Source: Mycoplasma wenyonii
GTDB taxonomy: Bacteria; Bacillota_I; Bacilli_A; Mycoplasmatales; Mycoplasmoidaceae
Length of the DNA stretch: 35,044 bases
NCBI RefSeq assembly: GCF_003265155.1
Contig: NZ_QKVO01000004.1
Coordinates: 1 to 35,044 of the forward strand
Direction of reading: 5' to 3'
Made by a program: the position numbers and the translations under genes. Each line of letters starts with the position of its first letter. The first letter of the stretch is position 1. Positions 764 through 25,693 of this stretch are shown in pieces. The notes under the pieces were generated by a model, which was given only the letters and a program-made list of their open reading frames with translations, searched no databases and was not told where the DNA came from.

Positions 764-1780
764 ATTACATACAGTAAGTTTGGCTTATTAGCCACTTTAG
801 TTAGTGTCCCTTTTCTTTCTTTTCTCCAACAAGCTAAAGCTACCAATTGAACAAAACCTCATCTAGATGGTCTTTATACCAGAGCCTTGCTTTTTGTTAA
901 GGGACTAGAAGGCAAACCTCAATTAGTTCAAAGAAGTTCTAGCAGCAGTTCAGAATTTCCAAACAAGAATTATGAAATTCAACAAGTTTCTCAACAAGTT
1001 AGTGCAAGCCAAGCACAAACTGAAAGACCCGCTTTAATAGCCGAGTTCCCGCTAGCTAGATTAGGCCAAAAGAATTACTACAAGTATTGCATTCCTTCTG
1101 ACTCACCACTTCTAAAAACTAGTACACAGACAACAACTTCTTCTGATACAACAAACTGTAAGTTAGATTGATTTGGCTCTAATTCAACCCATGAGAAAAC
1201 CAAAAAAGAAGAAATATCCTTCTTACTAGAAACAATGGTGAAATTCATCGAAACTCAACATGTCGCAAATGTATTGATGTTCTATGATAAAAACACTAAT
1301 TTTCTCAATAATGGAACAACTGGGGGGGGCTCTTCACAAGTATTTAGTTCCATCCAACAGGCTTGCAAAGTGAAAAACAAAAACTCTAAAGAACTCATAA
1401 CAGAGCTTTTCTTTGCCCCCAAAGAGTGTCTTTTATCTCCTTCTTCAGCCAGAGTTACCTTGGAATTATTATCTTTCCCCTCTTTAACTCAAACCAACCA
1501 AACCCCAGAAATTCAAGTTACCAAGGAACAATTGACTCGCGCCAGAATATCAGGATTTCTTAGATATGGAGTATTTGAATATTCTGCGCAACCAAAGAAA
1601 ATTCCATCGTCACAGAATGGTGGAACCAAGCCACATAAAACTGCAAATTTAAAAGTTAACTGACCTCTGAGTTTTTATTTATGAAAAGAAAACGAAACCT
1701 ATTGTTTCTTAGACCCTATTTGAAGACAAGTTAAAGCTAGAGAATTAAAGTTTGAAGAGCTTAAAAATAGATGTGTTTAA
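764..1780 (+). CDS. Orphan exported protein with signal peptide and G8 tract
   Basis: One frame runs from just after TAA 755-757 to TAA 1778-1780, with TGA read as Trp at several sites (for example 1169, 1661). No ATG, GTG or TTG precedes the hydrophobic N-terminus, so I place the start at ATT 764 (about 338 residues). The N-terminus has a short polar segment with Lys, a hydrophobic core (FGLLATLVSVPFLSFL) and an A-K-A site, a convincing Sec signal peptide. The mature part is Ser/Gln-rich near its start and shows no recognised domain. A run of eight G at 1322-1329 encodes part of a Gly-Gly-Gly-Ser-Ser stretch and could slip in replication. I infer a secreted or surface protein of the haemoplasma orphan type. 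The start is the least certain part. Confidence 0.7.
1322..1329 (+). repeat. G8 homopolymer inside an exported-protein gene
   Basis: Eight consecutive G within the coding frame of the 764-1780 gene. Such tracts are rare in AT-rich DNA and are typical sites of slipped-strand mispairing. A change of one base would truncate the protein after about 190 residues. Confidence 0.85.
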
Positions 1781-7883: not shown

Positions 7884-8519
7884 ATGTTAATTAGACTAGG
7901 AGCATATGGCGCTAAGAATTCTAAGAAGAGAAAATATAAACCTTTACTTTTCTTTAACTTAATACCCAATATTGTTTTTGGAATATTTATTGGTATATTC
8001 ATAAATCTAATTCTGCTAGCTTGATTACTAATTGGATTATTTACTCAAGGAAGGGATTATCAGCTATTCTTTTATTCCTCTCTAGGGTTAATAACTTTCT
8101 TTATTTCCTATTTGATATATAGATACAAATACTTTCATATCCTAAAAGTACCTTCTTATAAGAGTTTCTTAATCTCTAGAAATAAATTGTTTTGATGAAT
8201 ATTTTGAACAGTTAATACTTGATTATTAAGCTGTTGAGCTGGAATGGTATGTATTGGTACCTTTGGAGGATTTGGTTGAAAACACTTTAATAATAAACAA
8301 ATTTTGACTTTGACAGGTGAACCTGAATTAACTAGATTAACTGGAATTATTCTTTGAATTATTCATTGATTCTTGATAGGTACTCTATCTATAAGCTATA
8401 GAAAGTTTGTAGAGTTCTTTAATAGCTGTAGAGTTAAGTTGAGAAATAGAAGAGCACAATTAAAACAATTTAAGTTAAAGGCTGAAGAAGAAGTTAACTT
8501 TGAAACAATGAAAATCTAG
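7884..8519 (+). CDS. Small polytopic membrane protein upstream of atpB (unknown)
   Basis: ATG 7884 to TAG 8517-8519 encodes 211 residues, with many TGA-Trp codons (Trp-rich core). About four hydrophobic segments are visible (the first around FNLIPNIVFGIFIGIFINLILLA split by polar breaks, then LGLITFFISYLIY, a Trp/Cys-rich segment, and ILWIIHWFLIGTLSI). The N-terminus is basic (KNSKKRKYK) and the C-terminal tail is charged and helical. I do not recognise a family. It is the first gene of the cluster that continues into atpB, in the place where many bacteria have the assembly factor atpI. A role in F0 assembly or structure is a guess from position. Confidence 0.7.
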
Positions 8520-8550
8520 AATGAGCTTTTTAGAAATAAATGAATAGTAA

Positions 8551-9075
8551 GTGGAGAGTGAAAGATGGTATAGAATACATTACTTCACTGCACAAATCCT
8601 TTTAAGTGTTTATGTCAGCGTTGCTATCATCTGGGACACAATGATTTACGTTTCAAAAAATGCTGTGGCTGGGAAATTAAATGCTACTATCACTGCCGCC
8701 ACATCTGCTTTAATTCAATATTGTTTTCTGAGTTGCAAGTACAGAGTCTCTTGTAGATTATTTAGTCTCAAGTTATTAAAGGATAATTACACTTACTGAT
8801 TAATTAAATGTTTGAATTACAGAGATAAAACAAAGAGCCTTAAAGGTTTCAAATTTAAGATATATCTCTTTCAATTACTTAGTATTTTTTCCTCAATCTT
8901 TGTATTTGCCCTAGGAAGTGTGTTGACTGCTAGTTGGAGTTATGATGGTCAAAAAGATTATTTCTTTAATAAGTGGTTTGGATTAGCAGGGGCTTTGATC
9001 TTTCCAGCAGTTAGATTATTTACCTCCTTAGTGTATATACCTAACAGAAGTTATAAATTATTCTTTAGGATTTAG
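8551..9075 (+). CDS. Small polytopic membrane protein directly before atpB (unknown)
   Basis: GTG 8551 is the first possible start after in-frame stops at 8545-8550. The frame ends at TAG 9073-9075, giving 174 residues with a TGA-Trp near 8799. Four hydrophobic segments are seen (AQILLSVYVSVAIIW, ITAATSALIQYCF, FQLLSIFSSIFVFALGSVL, WFGLAGALIFPAVRLFTSL). It ends three bases before atpB. It lacks what marks subunit c: there is no Gly-rich hairpin of about 75 residues and no acidic residue in the middle of the second helix. I therefore do not call it atpE. Its tight coupling to atpB suggests a partner in the ATP synthase membrane part, but this is inference. An ATG in another frame at 8539 leads only to a short dead end. 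Confidence 0.65.
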
Positions 9076-9078
9076 AAA

Positions 9079-9849
9079 ATGACTAGTTTAGGAGTGAATT
9101 CAATCTTTTTGAATAATATGTTGTTTTTTCAACAGACAAATGGAGATGATGCTAACAAAGTTAACAGTGTTATCTCTGGAGCTTTTATGGTTACTGTTTT
9201 GATTCTTTTCCTAGGACTCTATTACAAGATAACTCTGGAAAGAGCTAAAAATTATAAGAAACTTCCAAAGATTATTTTCTTGGTCTTCTTAATGATCAGA
9301 TGGATAAAGAGAACTACTATAGAGATGTTGGGAAGAAGATATAGCTTTGCTATTCCTTTCTTTATATACATAGTCTTTTATTTTTGGGGAACTAGCTTGG
9401 TAGGTATGCTTGGATTTCAAGGAATAAGCACATTTGCCTATATTCCTATGTCTATTGCTGGAGTAGTTTTTGTGGGAACTGTGTTTTCTGGACTTGCAGC
9501 TAAAGGTTGAGGTTTTTGTAAAGACTATTATGTTTGATTCCGATTAGGAAAAAAGAAGATACTTCCAATACCAGATGTATTGAAGATGTTGGGTGAAGCC
9601 GGAAAAGTTATTTCTCTTGGTCTTAGATTGTGAGGAAACTATTTTGCTGGAGCTATAGTCTTGTTTATGGTGAAACATTTTTTGAGTAGCTCCATAGGTA
9701 CATCTTGACAAAGCAATATCACTACACAATCTTTCTTGTTTCCATTGCATCTTTATTTTGATGTTGTAGATGGAGCTCTTCACTCTATGATCTTTCTAAT
9801 ATTGACTCTTTCTTACTGAAGCATGGCTAAGCAAGTAGAAAGCAAGTAA
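9079..9849 (+). CDS. atpB: ATP synthase F0 subunit a (AtpB)
   Basis: Subunit a forms the proton half-channels against the c-ring in the membrane. This 256-residue protein starts at ATG 9079 and has five or six hydrophobic helices. Its diagnostic helix reads SLGLRLWGNYFAGAIV, equivalent to the family's S-L-x-L-R-L-F-G-N-x-x-A-G, with the essential Arg at about residue 183. The last helix (ALHSMIFLILTLSY) matches the usual C-terminal helix. TGA is Trp at several sites, including the W of LWGN. The stop is followed one base later by atpF. In most bacteria atpE lies between the two, and here it is absent. Confidence 0.92.
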
Positions 9850-9850
9850 G

Positions 9851-10432
9851 ATGTCTGACTTTTCTAGCAAAATAAGTGAAATGGTCAAATTATTTCTTCA
9901 AGCACAACCAAGCGTCATTGCCGCTCATGCAGTCTCCTCCATTTCAGTCATTATCTTTATTGTCTATTTCTTCTGAAAGCCTACAAATAAGTTCATAAAT
10001 CAACAAAAGGAAAAGCTAGACAAGGTTCATAGTGCTTTATCGCAAGCAACTAAAGAAACCAAACAAGCTTTAACTAGTTTGCAAAAGGAACAAGAAGAGT
10101 TTCTCTTAGAGAAAAAGAAGTTTTTAAGAGAAAGAAAGGAGAAAGAGAAATTAATACTAAAACAAAGAATGGAAGAAGCGGAAAAGATGAAGCAAGAAAT
10201 TATTGCTGAAGCTCAAAAGAGAGTTCAATTAATGGAGGAGGAGGCCAAAAGAACAGTAAATCAGAAGATTATTACTCTTTCAGTTGATTTGGCTGAGAAA
10301 TTAATTAGAGGAGCAATAAATCAAAAGACTCAGTCAAAGATTATTGATGGTTATCTGGATGAATTAGATACAGTGTTTAAAGGAGCTCGCCCAGAAGCGG
10401 AAGATCTAGCTCAAGCAATTAAGAAGAGTTAG
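9851..10432 (+). CDS. atpF: ATP synthase F0 subunit b (AtpF)
   Basis: Peripheral stalk subunit linking subunit a to delta/alpha. ATG 9851 starts one base after the atpB stop. The 193 residues show a short N-terminus, one membrane helix (about residues 25-42, AVSSISVIIFIVYFFW), then a long Lys/Glu-rich helix with the family pattern of coiled-coil heptads. The C-terminus includes SVDLAEKLIRGAINQKTQ, close to the conserved A-x-x-L-I-x-x-x-I segment. The N-terminus has no lipobox, so it does not look like the lipoprotein form of b seen in some mycoplasmas. The gene belongs to the atpBFHAG run. Confidence 0.92.
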
Positions 10433-10437
10433 GCTAT

Positions 10438-11004
10438 ATGAGCTTTAATGATTCAGAGAAAGATAGGGCAAAGGTAGTTAGATTTGTAGCCGCTTTAATC
10501 TCTTGTTATGACAAAAAAACAGACTTTTTAAGACTATTGGATGAATCTAGCTCTTTACTTTCCTTTTTTAGGTCTTATGCAGAGTTTGGCACTTTCCTCT
10601 CTTCTCCTTTGTTCCCTCAAGAGCAAAAGGAGAAATTCTTAAAAGAGTTAATTAGATTATTTGCTTTTAAGCAAAGTTACTTATCTTCAACCCTATTACT
10701 ATTAGTTCAGTTTCACTTAATTAAATATCTCTCTACTTTTCTTGAGAGCTTAATTTTTAAATTAGAGATTCAATTAAATCAAAAGAGTGTCAAGGTCTTT
10801 AGTACTCAAAAATTAACTAAGACCAAGCAAAATAAGTTGGAAAAGGGCTTGAAACAGAAATTTGGAAAAGAGATCTCAATTGAGTATTTAATTTCTAGTG
10901 AGATGATTGCAGGAATAAAGGTAGAATACGATGATACTATACTTGAATGTTCTTTGTCTAAGAAACTAGCTGATATTAAAGAGAAGCTATCAGCATTGGC
11001 TTAA
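10438..11004 (+). CDS. atpH: ATP synthase F1 subunit delta (AtpH)
   Basis: Delta caps the F1 head and binds subunit b. The 188-residue protein starts at ATG 10438, five bases after atpF. The N-terminal helical domain carries the pattern of the OSCP/delta family (YAEFGTFLSSPLFPQEQKEKFL resembles the stretch ending N-P-x-I-x-x-x-x-K). The C-terminal domain ends in MIAGIKVEYDDTILECSLSKKLADIKEKL, close to the family signature G-G-x-x-I-x-x-x-D-x-x-x-D-x-S-x-x-x-x-L, although the second Gly is Ala-Gly here. Position between atpF and atpA agrees. The sequence is divergent, as is usual for this subunit. Confidence 0.88.
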   Translation: MSFNDSEKDRAKVVRFVAALISCYDKKTDFLRLLDESSSLLSFFRSYAEFGTFLSSPLFPQEQKEKFLKELIRLFAFKQSYLSSTLLLLVQFHLIKYLSTFLESLIFKLEIQLNQKSVKVFSTQKLTKTKQNKLEKGLKQKFGKEISIEYLISSEMIAGIKVEYDDTILECSLSKKLADIKEKLSALA

Positions 11005-11006
11005 AG

Positions 11007-12527
11007 ATGTCTTCACCTAGACTAGAAGAATTTGCAGAGTCGCTCAAGAGATTAATTCAAGATAAGGAGTTAACCCTTAGAGAAGAAGGAACAGGAAAAG
11101 TTCTCTCCAACCAAGATGGAATACTTTCTATCTCAGGACTTTCCAACTGTACTCTTTATGAGGTAGTTCTAATTGGTCCAGATAAGATTCAGGCTTTAGT
11201 TCTAACTCTTAGAGAAAGTAGTATTGGGGCAGTAGTTTTAGGTAGATATGACAAAGTTTCTGAGGGAATGAATGCAGTAAGAACTGAAAAGACTTTTTCT
11301 GCCCCCAACGGAGATCAATTACTAGGAAGAATAATAGACGTATTTGGAAATGCAATAGATGGTTTGGGAGAGATCAAGAATGAGAAGTGATCTCAGGTGG
11401 AGGCCCCAGCACCAGAAGTAATGGAAAGGAGTTCTGTATGTGAACCTCTTTATACAGGAATCTTGGCTATTGATGCCATGATTCCTATTGGTAAAGGCCA
11501 AAGAGAGCTAATTATTGGGGACAGACACACAGGAAAAACTACTCTTGCACTGGAAGCCATTGTTAACCAAAAAGGAAGAAATGTTAATTGTGTTTATGTC
11601 TCTGTAGGTCAAAAGAACTCTACTTTATTCCAACTATCTAAGGAACTAGAGAAAATCGGTTCCTTGAGTTATACCTGTTTTGTTGTAGCTAGCGCCTCAG
11701 ACTCACCAGCCTTGCAATTCCTATCTCCCTTTGTTGGAGTTACTATTGCAGAACATTGAATGTGAGAGGGTAAGGATGTGTTAATTATCTATGATGACTT
11801 AACACAACACGCAATTGCTTATAGAACACTTTCACTTCTTTTGAACTTCCCTCCAGGTAGAGAGGCTTTTCCTGGAGATATTTTCTATCTTCACAGCCGA
11901 TTGTTGGAAAGAGCGGGAAAGCTTTCAAAAGAAAATGGAGGAGGTTCAATTACAGCCTTACCAATTATTCAAACTCAATCAGATGACATTGCAGCCTATA
12001 TTCCTAGCAATGTAATTTCTATTACTGACGGACAATTATTCTTGAAAACCAATCTCTTTAATTCAGGCCAGAGACCAGCAATTGACTTAACTAATTCAGT
12101 CTCTCGGGTTGGAGGATCTGCTCAAGAAACAGCTATTAAGAGTATGACTAGTTCCTTGAAACTCTTCGTTTCTCAATACTATGAATTAATTGAGTTCTCT
12201 AAATTTTCCTCAGACCTTAATGAAGAATCTAAGAGAATATTTGCAATAGGTGAAAGAATACTTCCTATCCTGAAACAAGCTCCTCTAAAGCCTTTAGGCC
12301 CTAAAGATGAGTTAATGCTACTTCACCTAATCTCAACTAAGTTAATACTTGAGATTGAGAAAAAAGAATGAGTCTCTGAAGTTTGTGAAAAAGTTTTGAA
12401 TGCTTGAAGAGCACATGAGCTTTATGATAGCCTTTCACTGGCTGAAAAAGCTAGTGATAGTCTAAAGACAACTATGACTAGCTTGTTTGAGGATGAGTAC
12501 AAGCAGTTCTTATTTACTCAAAGCTAG
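11007..12527 (+). CDS. atpA: ATP synthase F1 subunit alpha (AtpA)
   Basis: Non-catalytic nucleotide-binding subunit of the F1 hexamer. The 506-residue protein (ATG 11007 to TAG 12525-12527) has a beta-barrel N-terminal domain. Its P-loop GDRHTGKT lies at residues 171-178 (family GDRQTGKT). [17 protein letters not shown] is the Walker B region, [19 protein letters not shown] follows, and the arginine-finger segment is [13 protein letters not shown] codons (about 11389, 11758, 11764, 12369) are Trp. It starts two bases after atpH. Family key residues look intact, so a working alpha subunit is expected. Confidence 0.97.
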
Positions 12528-12570: not shown

Positions 12571-13443
12571 ATGTCAACAGCCACTCTTTTAATTGCCAAA
12601 AAGATTAAAGATATGCAATTCATATTGAAGGTAACAGAAGCCCTTAAATTAATCTCTTCAGCGAAGCTAAGAAACTATAAACAAATAGCTCAAAAGAGTC
12701 AAGACTACTGTAACTCTATTAAGTTTCTGTTTGAAAAGTTCTATTCGAGTTATGAACATGATTACCAACTAACTAACACTAAATTCTTTCTTGCTGAGCA
12801 GATTAACCCAAAATTAGTTCTCTTAGTAGTTATTGGAACTGATCTTGCACTTTGTGGTAGATTCAATAAACAACTAATAGATCACATAAGAAACAACTTT
12901 TCTTCTCATTTACACCTAGTAGTTTTTGGAAGAAAGCTAACAGCTTTACTTTCCAACACTCCACTTAAAGAAAAAATAATTAAGTCTTATGGTTCAGAAC
13001 TTCCTGCTAAAGAATTTTCTAAACAAATAGAAGAGATCTCTGCCTTCCTCTTAAAGGAGTATGTGAATAGAGGATGTCAATATTTACAGATACTTCACAA
13101 ATCCTTAAATAAACCCTTTAAGTTAAAGAAATTATTGCCTTTTACTGAAGATTACTTCGGCAGAGTCACCAGATCCATTAAATATGAGACACACGAATAT
13201 AAGGTAAATACTTCTGATTGTGTTATAGAGATGTTTCCTACCTTTTTTGAGAGAACCTTACAACTCTCTTTAATTGAATCTAAGATTGCTGAACACAATC
13301 TAAGAAGAGATGTAATGAGTAATGCTGTAAAGGCCGCAGAGGAAAAACTACAAGAGTATCAAATACTTTATAGAAAGATGAAACAATCTTCCATTACTCA
13401 AGAAATCTCTGAAATTACTGCAGCTATTAAGTGTAAGAATTAA
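12571..13443 (+). CDS. atpG: ATP synthase F1 subunit gamma (AtpG)
   Basis: Central rotor shaft of F1. The 290-residue protein starts at ATG 12571, 43 bases after atpA. The N-terminal helix (IAKKIKDMQFILKVTEALKLI) matches the family's I-K-x-R-I-x-S-x-x-x-T-x-K-I-T-x-A-M-x-M-V. The middle domain includes GTDLALCGRFNKQL (family S-D-x-G-L-C-G-x-x-N). The C-terminal helix ends in SLIESKIAEHNLRRDVMSNAVKAA and the conserved SSITQEISEI. The TAA stop (13441-13443) overlaps the stop of the converging gene on the other strand. Here the usual order atpA-atpG-atpD breaks. Confidence 0.95.
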   Translation: MSTATLLIAKKIKDMQFILKVTEALKLISSAKLRNYKQIAQKSQDYCNSIKFLFEKFYSSYEHDYQLTNTKFFLAEQINPKLVLLVVIGTDLALCGRFNKQLIDHIRNNFSSHLHLVVFGRKLTALLSNTPLKEKIIKSYGSELPAKEFSKQIEEISAFLLKEYVNRGCQYLQILHKSLNKPFKLKKLLPFTEDYFGRVTRSIKYETHEYKVNTSDCVIEMFPTFFERTLQLSLIESKIAEHNLRRDVMSNAVKAAEEKLQEYQILYRKMKQSSITQEISEITAAIKCKN

Positions 13444-14078
13444 AGTATCTCTCCGACTTCAATCCCTAGATTAGAATTTTCATCTCTTTCTGTGTTACTG
13501 TAAAACTCTGATTTTTCTTTACCAGTAGAGACCAATACTTTTTCTCAAAGAGAGTTAATTTGCTTTTCTTCAACTAACTTATCAAATCAATTTTTTTTGA
13601 GCAATTGAAAAACTTGTCTAATGATCTTAGAAACTTCTTTTTTTAAGTTTGGAGTGTATCTCATTTTCTGAGAGTTGAATTGATAATTATCGTTGTAAAG
13701 TAGATTTATCTCTTTTTCATTATTGAGAGTTAAAGCTAGATCTAGTTCAATATACTTGAGAGCTTTTTCTTCTATTAGGGGAGGGGTTGCAATTTTTAAT
13801 AGTAGGTTGTAATTATTGTCTGGAAGAAGAGTTAATAAAACATTAAATCAATGTTCTTTTCAAAAGAATCAGAAAGTTGGATATTTATTAGTTAAGGTTG
13901 AACATCTTTTTCTTTTTGGGAATCTACTTGTATCATATTGAGATTGCTCTAATTCTTTAATTTGTTGAGCTTTTAAGGGGGGAAGGAAGAAGACTCAAGA
14001 GTTTGTACTTTCGAATATACAATGATGACCTTCTATGGATTTATATAGCGAACCATCACATCTATAGGTGTGAATCAT
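13440..14078 (-). CDS. DUF402 family protein, probable nucleoside phosphatase
   Basis: This gene is hidden unless TGA is read as Trp; the minus frame is then open from about 14132 to stop TAA 13442-13440. ATG 14078 gives 212 residues; an upstream in-frame TTG at 14102 would add eight. The sequence follows the DUF402 (YgaC/Ntdp) pattern in order: IHTYRCDGSLYKS near the start, then EHWFNVLLTLLPDNNYNLLLKIATPP, EEKALKYIELDLALTL and the acidic LLYNDNYQF. Characterised relatives hydrolyse nucleoside tri- and diphosphates with divalent metal ions, so a nucleotide-sanitising role is likely, by homology only. The C-terminal 40 residues are extra. Its stop shares bases with the atpG stop, and it interrupts the ATP synthase genes in the opposite direction. 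Confidence 0.8.
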
Positions 14079-14149
14079 CAATAGTTCTGAAGAAGATGTC
14101 AAATAAAAATTAAGAAAGTTCCTTAAAAGACTTTAGTTCAGAAAAAGAT

Positions 14150-14690
14150 TTAAAAGATTGCTTTAGATGTGAAACCATCTTGTCATTCCAAGCCAGAATC
14201 TTCAGAAACTTTCATGTCACATTCTTTCCTATCATTTTCGCTCACACAGTTTTCTAGAGTTAACTTGATCTTGTCAAAACCTTTTTCTCAAGTTCACGAA
14301 TCCCCCTCTCCATCGTTATAAGTCCAGTTTTTAACTTTAAATACATTCTTATTGCAATTGAAAGTTGTGTCATCATAAGTGTCCCCCATCGCGCCAGTAA
14401 GTGTCCCTAGTCTAGTAGTTCCTGTTCCAAAAATTGTTAGACGATAAGTTGTTTCACCCCTCAATCTTTGTTCATTTAAGTTAATTTCTCTGTTTTGACT
14501 ACGATCAAATCTCTTTAAATAGAGTTCTTTATTCCCTCCAGAAACATTCTTATAGGCTAAAGAAAGTCTTTGTTAAAGACAAATCCTTTAATCTCATCTC
14601 CCATGCCTTTACTTTAAGTAAAGAAAGAGTTGCAGGCACTCCACAACCAAAACAAATAATACTTCTAGACAAGAGCTTAGGCAAAAACAT
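14150..14690 (-). pseudogene. Frameshifted orphan gene (exported type)
   Basis: On the minus strand ATG 14690 starts a peptide with a hydrophobic N-terminus (LLSRSIICFGCGVPATLSLL) that ends at a TAA near 14551. Shifting the frame by one base at about 14550-14565 opens a second frame. This one has no start of its own and reads AYKNVSGGNKELYLKRF onward to TAA 14152-14150, with three TGA-Trp codons (two in SWTWEKG). Together they make a signal-anchored protein of about 178 residues of the same orphan style as the other exported proteins here. A real inactivating indel, a sequencing error or ribosomal frameshifting could all explain it. I recognise no family. Confidence 0.55.
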
Positions 14691-14734
14691 AATTCTTAGT
14701 TAATAAATTTACTGAGCCTAAAAGTTAATTTATA

Positions 14735-14811
14735 TGGGGCGATTAATGGGATTCGAACCCATACATGCCTGGACCACAATCAGGTGTGTTGACCATTTCA
14801 CCATAACCGCC
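14735..14811 (-). tRNA. tRNA-His (anticodon GTG)
   Basis: The reverse complement folds as a cloverleaf with an eight-pair acceptor including the His-specific G-1:C73 pair, anticodon loop TTGTGGT (anticodon GTG), the T arm with GGTTCGAATCC, and an encoded CCA end. The gene is 77 bases. It lies upstream of the frameshifted orphan gene on the same strand and diverges from atpD. Confidence 0.95.
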
Positions 14812-14982: not shown

Positions 14983-16434
<1,452 letters not shown>

Positions 16435-16437
16435 AGT

Positions 16438-17211
16438 TTGCTTCGTAAGTCTCAATTCGAAGGGTTAGCACAGAAAGTAATCAAGAATTATTACCGAGAA
16501 TTTGCAGGGAGCCTACAGAATAATTCTCATTCTCAAGCCCTTCTGTATGCACAAAAGATAGAAAGCTTAAGAGCTAACTTTCTTAACTATTTAGAAATCT
16601 CTTATACTCATTTAGCTTCAATTCAGCCTAACAGGTATTACTTAGAGAGAATCATTATTAATTTCTTGGATTCAAAAAGTAGAAAATGAGAACTATTTAC
16701 TAATTGTTCAGATTTCAAATTCAAAACTTGTTGTACTTATTCTCTAGAAGAGTTCTTAAAAAAAGACAAAATAGTAGGTGCTACATTGGTTTGTTTAGGC
16801 GATCAAACTGATCCGTCTTTAATTAGTGAAGTTGGCAAAAAACTGAGTTACTTTCAAGAAAGAAATCAAGCAGTCTATAGTTACCTAATTAGTAAAGAGT
16901 TGAACACTCTAAAAAAACAATCTTTGCAGCCCTTTTCATTTGTTTGCTATGACCCTTCAGTAGAATTAAATGATTTTGGTTCCGTTTTGTTTGGGTTCCA
17001 AAAAAACCTACAACTTAATCCTGTGTTTCTAGGGAGTGGCGGAGCAAGCTTTGACCATCAAACAAGCGAGATTAAATTGAAAAAGATACCTTACTTGCTA
17101 GAAATAGGAACTCAAAATTTAATTTCTTGGTTAGTTCTTGCTGAATATTTCGACAAATTATCACAAAAATCAAATATTCCTTTAGACTCTATTATTAGGG
17201 ATGTCAGCTAA
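16438..17211 (+). CDS. Unknown protein in the usual atpC slot
   Basis: TTG 16438 lies three bases after the atpD stop. The frame runs to TAA 17209-17211 with one TGA-Trp (16687), giving 257 residues. It is not an epsilon subunit: there is no beta-sandwich pattern, and a better epsilon candidate lies at 25274. The outline is a long N-terminal helical stretch (about 1-80), an alpha/beta middle (KIVGATLVCLGDQTDPSL and PFSFVCYDPSVEL), and a C-terminal helix (IPYLLEIGTQNLISWLVLAEYFDKL). That order loosely resembles subunit gamma, but I see no diagnostic residue. The end overlaps pyrH by 11 bases. I assign no function. Confidence 0.7.
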
Positions 17212-25273: not shown

Positions 25274-25693
25274 ATGGCTAAGTTAAAAACTCTTAAGCAA
25301 AGCTTGAAAAAGCAAGTCAAGAAAGAGGAAAAGGAGGCAAAGGAGGCAAAGGAGGTAAAACCAACTAATCCTCCTAGACATGAAAGACTTAAAGTAAATA
25401 GATTAGCTTCTCCCGATCAACCCATTAGAGTTAGAATACTTGGGCCTACAGAGATTTTTGTGAGCGAGGATGTTAAATCTCTTCAGGTAAATCTGCCTGA
25501 TGGAAAGATGTCTATTAATAGAAGATATGCCTCTGTAATTGAAAGACTAAAAGAGGGAGAGATTAAGTTAAATCTTGCCTATCCAAGTTCTTCCGGTAGT
25601 GGCCAAGAGAAGAGATATCAAATCTCCTCAGGTTGATTAATTACCTCACACAATTTGTGTGAAATATTAGTTAAAAGTTGTAAAGAAAGTTAA
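25274..25693 (+). CDS. atpC: ATP synthase F1 subunit epsilon (AtpC), displaced, Lys-rich N-terminus
   Basis: ATG 25274 to TAA 25691-25693 encodes 139 residues, with TGA 25634 read as Trp. From about residue 49 the sequence follows the epsilon beta-sandwich: IRVRILGPTEIFVSEDVKSL (family V-x-I-x-T-P-x-x-x-x-x-x-x-V-x-x-V), then LPDGKMSINRRYASVIERLKEGEIKL (family T-x-x-G-x-x-G-I-L-x-x-H-x-P-L-x-x-x-L-x-x-G-x-x-x), and a final strand around GWLITSHNLCEILVKS. The C-terminal helical hairpin of long epsilons is absent. The first 48 residues are Lys/Glu-rich and not part of the family. It lies about 8.8 kb from atpD, between tatD and a kinase gene, so assignment rests on sequence, not context. Confidence 0.75.
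25331..25357 (+). repeat. Three 9-bp tandem units in atpC
   Basis: AAGGAGGCA occurs twice and AAGGAGGTA once in a row, in frame, encoding Glu-Ala-Lys-type repeats of the basic extension. Each unit contains a perfect Shine-Dalgarno core GGAGG. A CCTCC about 14 bases further on could pair with the last one. Confidence 0.85.

Follow-up and report, generated by a model that had tools for sequence, protein, structure and literature searches.

Subunit c genes of the ATP synthase outside the atp operon in Mycoplasma wenyonii and a putative poly-G frameshift switch

Few parts of the near-universal ATP synthase are as well conserved as subunit c, which bacteria nearly always encode by one operon gene. 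The mammalian genes ATP5MC1-3 specify near-identical mature c proteins with differing N-termini, and in both mammals and Trypanosoma brucei it is a mitochondrial presequence, removed by cleavage, that makes up the variable N-terminus. Subunit c isoforms of T. brucei are described in a previous study (PMC3542316), and several subunit c genes are a feature that M. wenyonii shares with T. brucei and with mammals. However, no import exists in M. wenyonii, which sets its variable c extension apart from a mitochondrial presequence.

A second point of comparison is Campylobacter jejuni NCTC11168, for which one paper counts 29 loci containing G/C runs of at least 7 (PMC4965091). There, as in atpE of M. 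wenyonii, the run is intragenic and its length sets the reading frame. The known targets of this type are mainly surface structures, whereas the tract considered here is part of the gene for a core bioenergetic subunit, and its switching is putative.

Closer still, a paralogous family 'ATP synthase C subunit (n = 2)' has been reported for M. suis (PMC3091866), and 'ATP synthase subunits' have been listed among hemoplasma paralogues, a hint at duplication (PMC3958358). These lists come from the window's genus and concern the gene family treated here, but they give counts alone; the text searched there mentions neither loss of the operon copy nor up to eight copies, variable N-termini or poly-G tracts. 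Going by the literature searched, subunit c duplication is already known; operon loss, family size, variable N-termini and poly-G in atpE were not found described in the freely accessible papers, and those on hemoplasma poly-G phase variation or atpE contained just general tandem-repeat statements for M. haemofelis.

An atp operon without a subunit c gene

We analysed a stretch of 35,044 nucleotides (the window) of the M. wenyonii INIFAP02 assembly, which comprises 596,665 bp in 37 contigs with an N50 of 35,044 bp (PMC6256526), using translation table 4. A first-pass annotation of this DNA had placed atpB and atpF one base apart, and this is indeed the arrangement, with the TAA stop codon of atpB at 9849, a G at 9850 and the ATG of atpF at 9851 (Table 1). 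It had also stated that bacteria usually keep atpE at this site, in agreement with the position of atpE directly 3' of atpB in 27 out of 33 family genomes whose atpB was located, and that no subunit c hairpin is visible in the window. The whole assembly was searched with PF00137 in six frames, stop-to-stop and independently of start codons (E<=10), and zero matches were obtained on the window's contig, so that an overlooked c ORF with an unusual start can be rejected.

The products of the other atp genes, subunits a, b, delta, alpha, gamma, beta and epsilon, match F-type families, and the idea that the operon encodes a second, F1-like ATPase is unsupported. Nor is epsilon missing, for atpC is located outside the operon, approximately 9 kb from atpD, yet within the window. 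Subunit a retains the essential Arg within ISLGLRLWGN and can be aligned to E. coli subunit a (1c17_M, E 3.6e-5). Its profile scores are 65-80 bits in the window's genus compared with 104-150 in other genera, low values that suggest fast evolution.

Some further features of the region were noted. Opposite-strand ORFs and the tRNA-His gene split atpG from atpD (window 13440-14810), and in Candidatus Mycoplasma haemolamae a comparable opposite-strand ORF lies between these two genes. An ORF of no known family (257 aa) is situated between atpD and pyrH (window 16438-17211), with an ORF of similar size at the same position in Ca. M. haemolamae. Directly 5' of atpB (window 7884-9075), two hydrophobic proteins without known family are encoded, the order of which is kept across the M. 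suis/wenyonii group.

Table 1. Location of the atp genes and neighbouring features of M. wenyonii INIFAP02; positions are those of the window, except for the atpE copies, which are on contig C33
Feature	Position	Strand	Basis	Remarks
atpB, F0 subunit a	9079..9849	+	PF00119 (ATP-synt_A), E 9.5e-22	256 aa (table 4)
atpB-atpF spacer	9850..9850	no strand	sequence	1 base (G), normal atpE site
atpF, F0 subunit b	9851..10432	+	PF00430 (ATP-synt_B), E 4.7e-7	ATG start at 9851
atpH, delta	10438..11004	+	PF00213 (OSCP), E 4.7e-23	
atpA, alpha	11007..12527	+	PF00006, E 1.8e-76	
atpG, gamma	12571..13443	+	PF00231, E 6.9e-42	
tRNA-His	14735-14810			between atpG and atpD
atpD, beta	15004..16434	+	PF00006, E 8.2e-73	
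atpC, epsilon	25274..25693	+	PF02823, E 1.4e-8 at 25427-25678	
atpE copy 1	133-429	minus strand of L004	PF00137 match C33:154-342	frame open
atpE copy 2	7930-8223	minus strand of L004	PF00137 match C33:7951-8139	frame open
atpE copy 3	9567-9887	minus strand of L004	PF00137 match C33:9588-9776	frame open

Subunit c genes on another contig and in related genomes

The first-pass annotation had reasoned that atpE must lie elsewhere, be replaced or be lost, and the profile search decides for the first of these, as contig C33 carries three intact genes that match PF00137 (64.6-66.1 bits against a cut-off of 24, E 1.7e-18 to 3.9e-18). Loss or replacement of subunit c is refuted by these genes, in which the ion-binding Glu and the hairpin are conserved, and we are close to certain that atpE has been relocated out of the operon. 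The three copies alternate with genes of paralogous membrane-protein families, and two of them are near purB-dnaK, a neighbourhood that with its c copies is common to INIFAP02, M. wenyonii Massachusetts and M. ovis. The copy count for INIFAP02 may be too low, as the assembly is a draft of approximately 7x and C33 starts beside copy 1.

The closest solved sequences to the c core are the bacterial c-rings 4bem, 3zk1 and the sodium-specific 1yce (1e-15), of which we take 1yce to be the Ilyobacter tartaricus and 4bem the Acetobacterium woodii c-ring. The core forms a two-helix hairpin, the ARNPE polar loop and AVCESVAIY of which align with 1yce. Assuming that the Na+-specific signature consists of Gln32, Val63, Glu65, Ser66, Thr67 and Tyr70 (I. 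tartaricus numbering), five of the six positions are kept and Thr67 is replaced by Val; in its sequence, the ion site of the relocated c resembles a Na+ site. With the F-type rings 1yce and 4bem, the M. wenyonii subunit shares the core of two helices, the ion-binding Glu and, at the positions of Na+-type sites, Gln, Val, Ser and Tyr; it differs from them in the Val at position 67, the variable extension and the several near-identical genes outside the operon.

The six genomes of the family that depart from the usual atpE position are INIFAP02, M. wenyonii Massachusetts, M. ovis, Ca. M. haemominutum and two others (G016 and G062); in G062, from another genus of the family, atpE lies approximately 28 kb from atpB (contig C3). 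Operon copies are absent from the first four, which contain three, eight, three and one intact atpE genes, respectively, M. ovis having in addition two broken ones, of which 307199 is frameshifted and 541829 is a fragment. The close atpB-atpF junction without a c gene is likewise present in M. wenyonii Massachusetts, M. ovis and Ca. M. haemominutum. Alongside an operon copy, Ca. M. haemolamae has six distal atpE genes and M. suis and M. parvum one each. In a tree of five atp proteins, the four genomes that lack an operon copy group together as a single clade with bootstrap support of 100, and therefore a single loss of the operon copy is likely.

Two other arrangements were seen. Ca. M. haemobos has four tandem c genes behind atpB as well as a degenerate c-like ORF (L122:5758-6003, minus strand; 27 % identity), in which Asp occupies the Glu position and the Gln partner is lacking. 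M. wenyonii Massachusetts encodes two EF-Tu proteins that are 100 % identical (L106:1975-3156 and L108:6269-7450), each gene being near an atpE copy.

Conserved core, variable extension and poly-G tract

The relocated c proteins carry a hypervariable N-terminal extension of approximately 17-38 residues, in which protein identity within a genome is 31-49 % compared with 97-98 % in the core. An AlphaFold model of the Ca. M. haemolamae homologue (mean pLDDT 69) consists of a short N-terminal helix, a disordered link, flexible and with glycine, and a helical hairpin, the extension region being of low confidence. When the 60-residue core was compared between paralogues, pairs from M. wenyonii and M. 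ovis differed by 0-5.5 nonsynonymous versus 9-35 synonymous changes; haemolamae pairs also had 0-5.5 nonsynonymous changes, with synonymous sites saturated. Core dS between paralogues ranged from 0.2 (INIFAP02) up to saturation (haemolamae), and dN was mostly <=0.04, reaching approximately 0.1 for the suis and parvum pairs. At the sequence level, these counts show very strong purifying selection on the two-helix core. Since the protein cores are near-identical despite this synonymous divergence, several of the atpE copies are very probably functional.

Within the extension is a run of 7-9 G, usually G8C. In INIFAP02, G8C is found approximately 50-60 nt 5' of the core and in frame in all three copies. 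The run is inside seven of the eight extensions of M. wenyonii Massachusetts, the eighth run being just upstream, and it is present in all three intact M. ovis copies and in five of seven haemolamae copies; no poly-G tract was found in the atpE copies of M. suis, M. parvum and Ca. M. haemominutum or in any operon copy inspected. The start-side frame differs from that of the core in M. wenyonii Massachusetts 234606 and 236023 (nine G) and in haemolamae 283079. In both Massachusetts copies an ATG or GTG lies just 5' of the core, and the frame shift might, judging from the sequence, delete just the extension. A homopolymer in the 5' coding region, the length of which sets the frame, is present in every INIFAP02 copy and occurs in and out of frame in relatives.

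On both strands of the INIFAP02 genome, runs of G7, G8, G9 and G10 number 13, 120, 7 and 0, respectively, where the dinucleotide content predicts approximately one run of at least 8, an over-representation of about 100-fold. M. ovis has 120 G8, 20 G7 and 2 G9 runs. In both species the lengths peak sharply at 8, mostly followed by C (in INIFAP02, for example, at window 1322-1329 and L004:16406-16413); the peak is broader in other species of the genus, and in M. haemofelis and M. haemocanis the runs are nearly absent. All nine long G runs in 69 kb inspected are in an open frame with an upstream start codon, and the runs are often close to the 5' ends of surface-paralogue ORFs. Because the over-represented long runs sit in open frames, atpE appears to share a hypermutable device of paralogous surface-type genes. 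The notion that polyglycine is kept for protein reasons is disfavoured by the exclusive use of a GGG..GGC run, although GGG accounts for only 9 % of Gly codons, and by the run's reading frame, which differs between genes. On balance, we favour the view that the tract mediates phase variation of atpE.

Origin and role of the relocated family

We propose, with good but not full confidence, that a c-ring is present and that its subunit c comes from a relocated, expanded multigene family with a poly-G frameshift switch. The comparisons show that an extra atpE first arose outside the operon within this hemoplasma genus and that the operon gene was deleted later; the simplest account is a single deletion, in the ancestor shared by M. 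wenyonii, M. ovis and Ca. M. haemominutum. Having moved into variable-gene islands, atpE would have expanded and gained the poly-G tract as a frameshift switch. We infer that slipped-strand frameshifting at the tract would make the c-producing copies and the displayed N-termini differ between cells, while several near-identical cores would allow at least one gene to stay on and mixed rings to form. Switching of an essential subunit would be tolerable because the cores are redundant and near-identical; among the genomes examined, none depends on one tract-bearing atpE, the single copy of Ca. M. haemominutum being without a tract. In c-rings generally, both ends of subunit c face outward, and the variable extensions would therefore be exposed on a wall-less parasite. 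A role of the family in surface variation or immune evasion is conceivable on these grounds, if short of probable. It is more doubtful that the whole c supply would come from poly-G-switched surface-island genes, giving mixed rings with changing extracellular N-termini.

The strongest rival, possible though in our opinion rather unlikely to suffice, is gene dosage alone. With about ten c subunits in the ring of each enzyme, several separate copies would replace the high translation of an operon atpE, and the tracts and variable N-termini would have hitchhiked from surface-gene islands. Purifying selection on all intact copies is consistent with this, as is the monocistronic appearance of several M. 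wenyonii Massachusetts copies, which have divergent or convergent neighbours. However, one relocated copy suffices in Ca. M. haemominutum and one operon copy in most mycoplasmas, and dosage leaves unexplained why a GGG-codon tract should be maintained and read in varied frames while both its flanks diverge.

Alternatively, G8C could be a recombination or gene-conversion signal, or a DNA or RNA element of island genes, through which atpE N-termini are exchanged and cores homogenised; we consider this unlikely. The tract length is nearly fixed at 8 (120 G8 versus 7 G9 runs in INIFAP02, 120 versus 2 in M. ovis), which is narrower than fast slippage predicts, and therefore recombination or another signal is possible. 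The sharp G8-then-C peak in these two genomes points the same way, as do the INIFAP02 cores: p among them is 0.05-0.11, and every core of M. ovis or M. wenyonii Massachusetts is more distant, even that of M. ovis 311909 beside purB (0.16). Against such a signal stand the mixtures of lengths 8, 9 and 10 in other species of the genus and the copies in which the start-side frame is disconnected from the core.

That the distal copies are decaying by-products of island duplication, only one being used, is improbable. The frameshifted copy and the fragment in M. ovis would fit decay, but none of the three INIFAP02 copies is broken, paralogue dS is high or saturated at the low dN values given above, and decaying duplicates would not be expected to show such constraint in all intact copies. 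An assembly artefact or contamination, with C33 stemming from another hemoplasma and atpE lost in INIFAP02, might be suspected because the draft has low coverage and comes from a mixed blood sample (PMC6256526) but is highly implausible, given that C33 purB (70-71 %) and dnaK (86-89 %) are about as expected relative to M. wenyonii Massachusetts and M. ovis, that the window's own atp genes are comparably distant from these two (atpA 90-91 %, atpG 77-81 %), that both closed genomes show the same arrangement and that contamination is estimated at 0.47 %.

In this case a relocated family of several genes encodes subunit c, and its hypermutable tract is also that of the surface-antigen paralogues. 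If switching of these copies does occur, a core energy-converting machine would be under phase variation, and it would provide a natural test of mixed-subunit tolerance in c-rings and of immune pressure on their outward ends. Should a phase-variable rotor prove true, a bioenergetic enzyme would belong to the repertoire by which a wall-less blood parasite of cattle varies its antigens.
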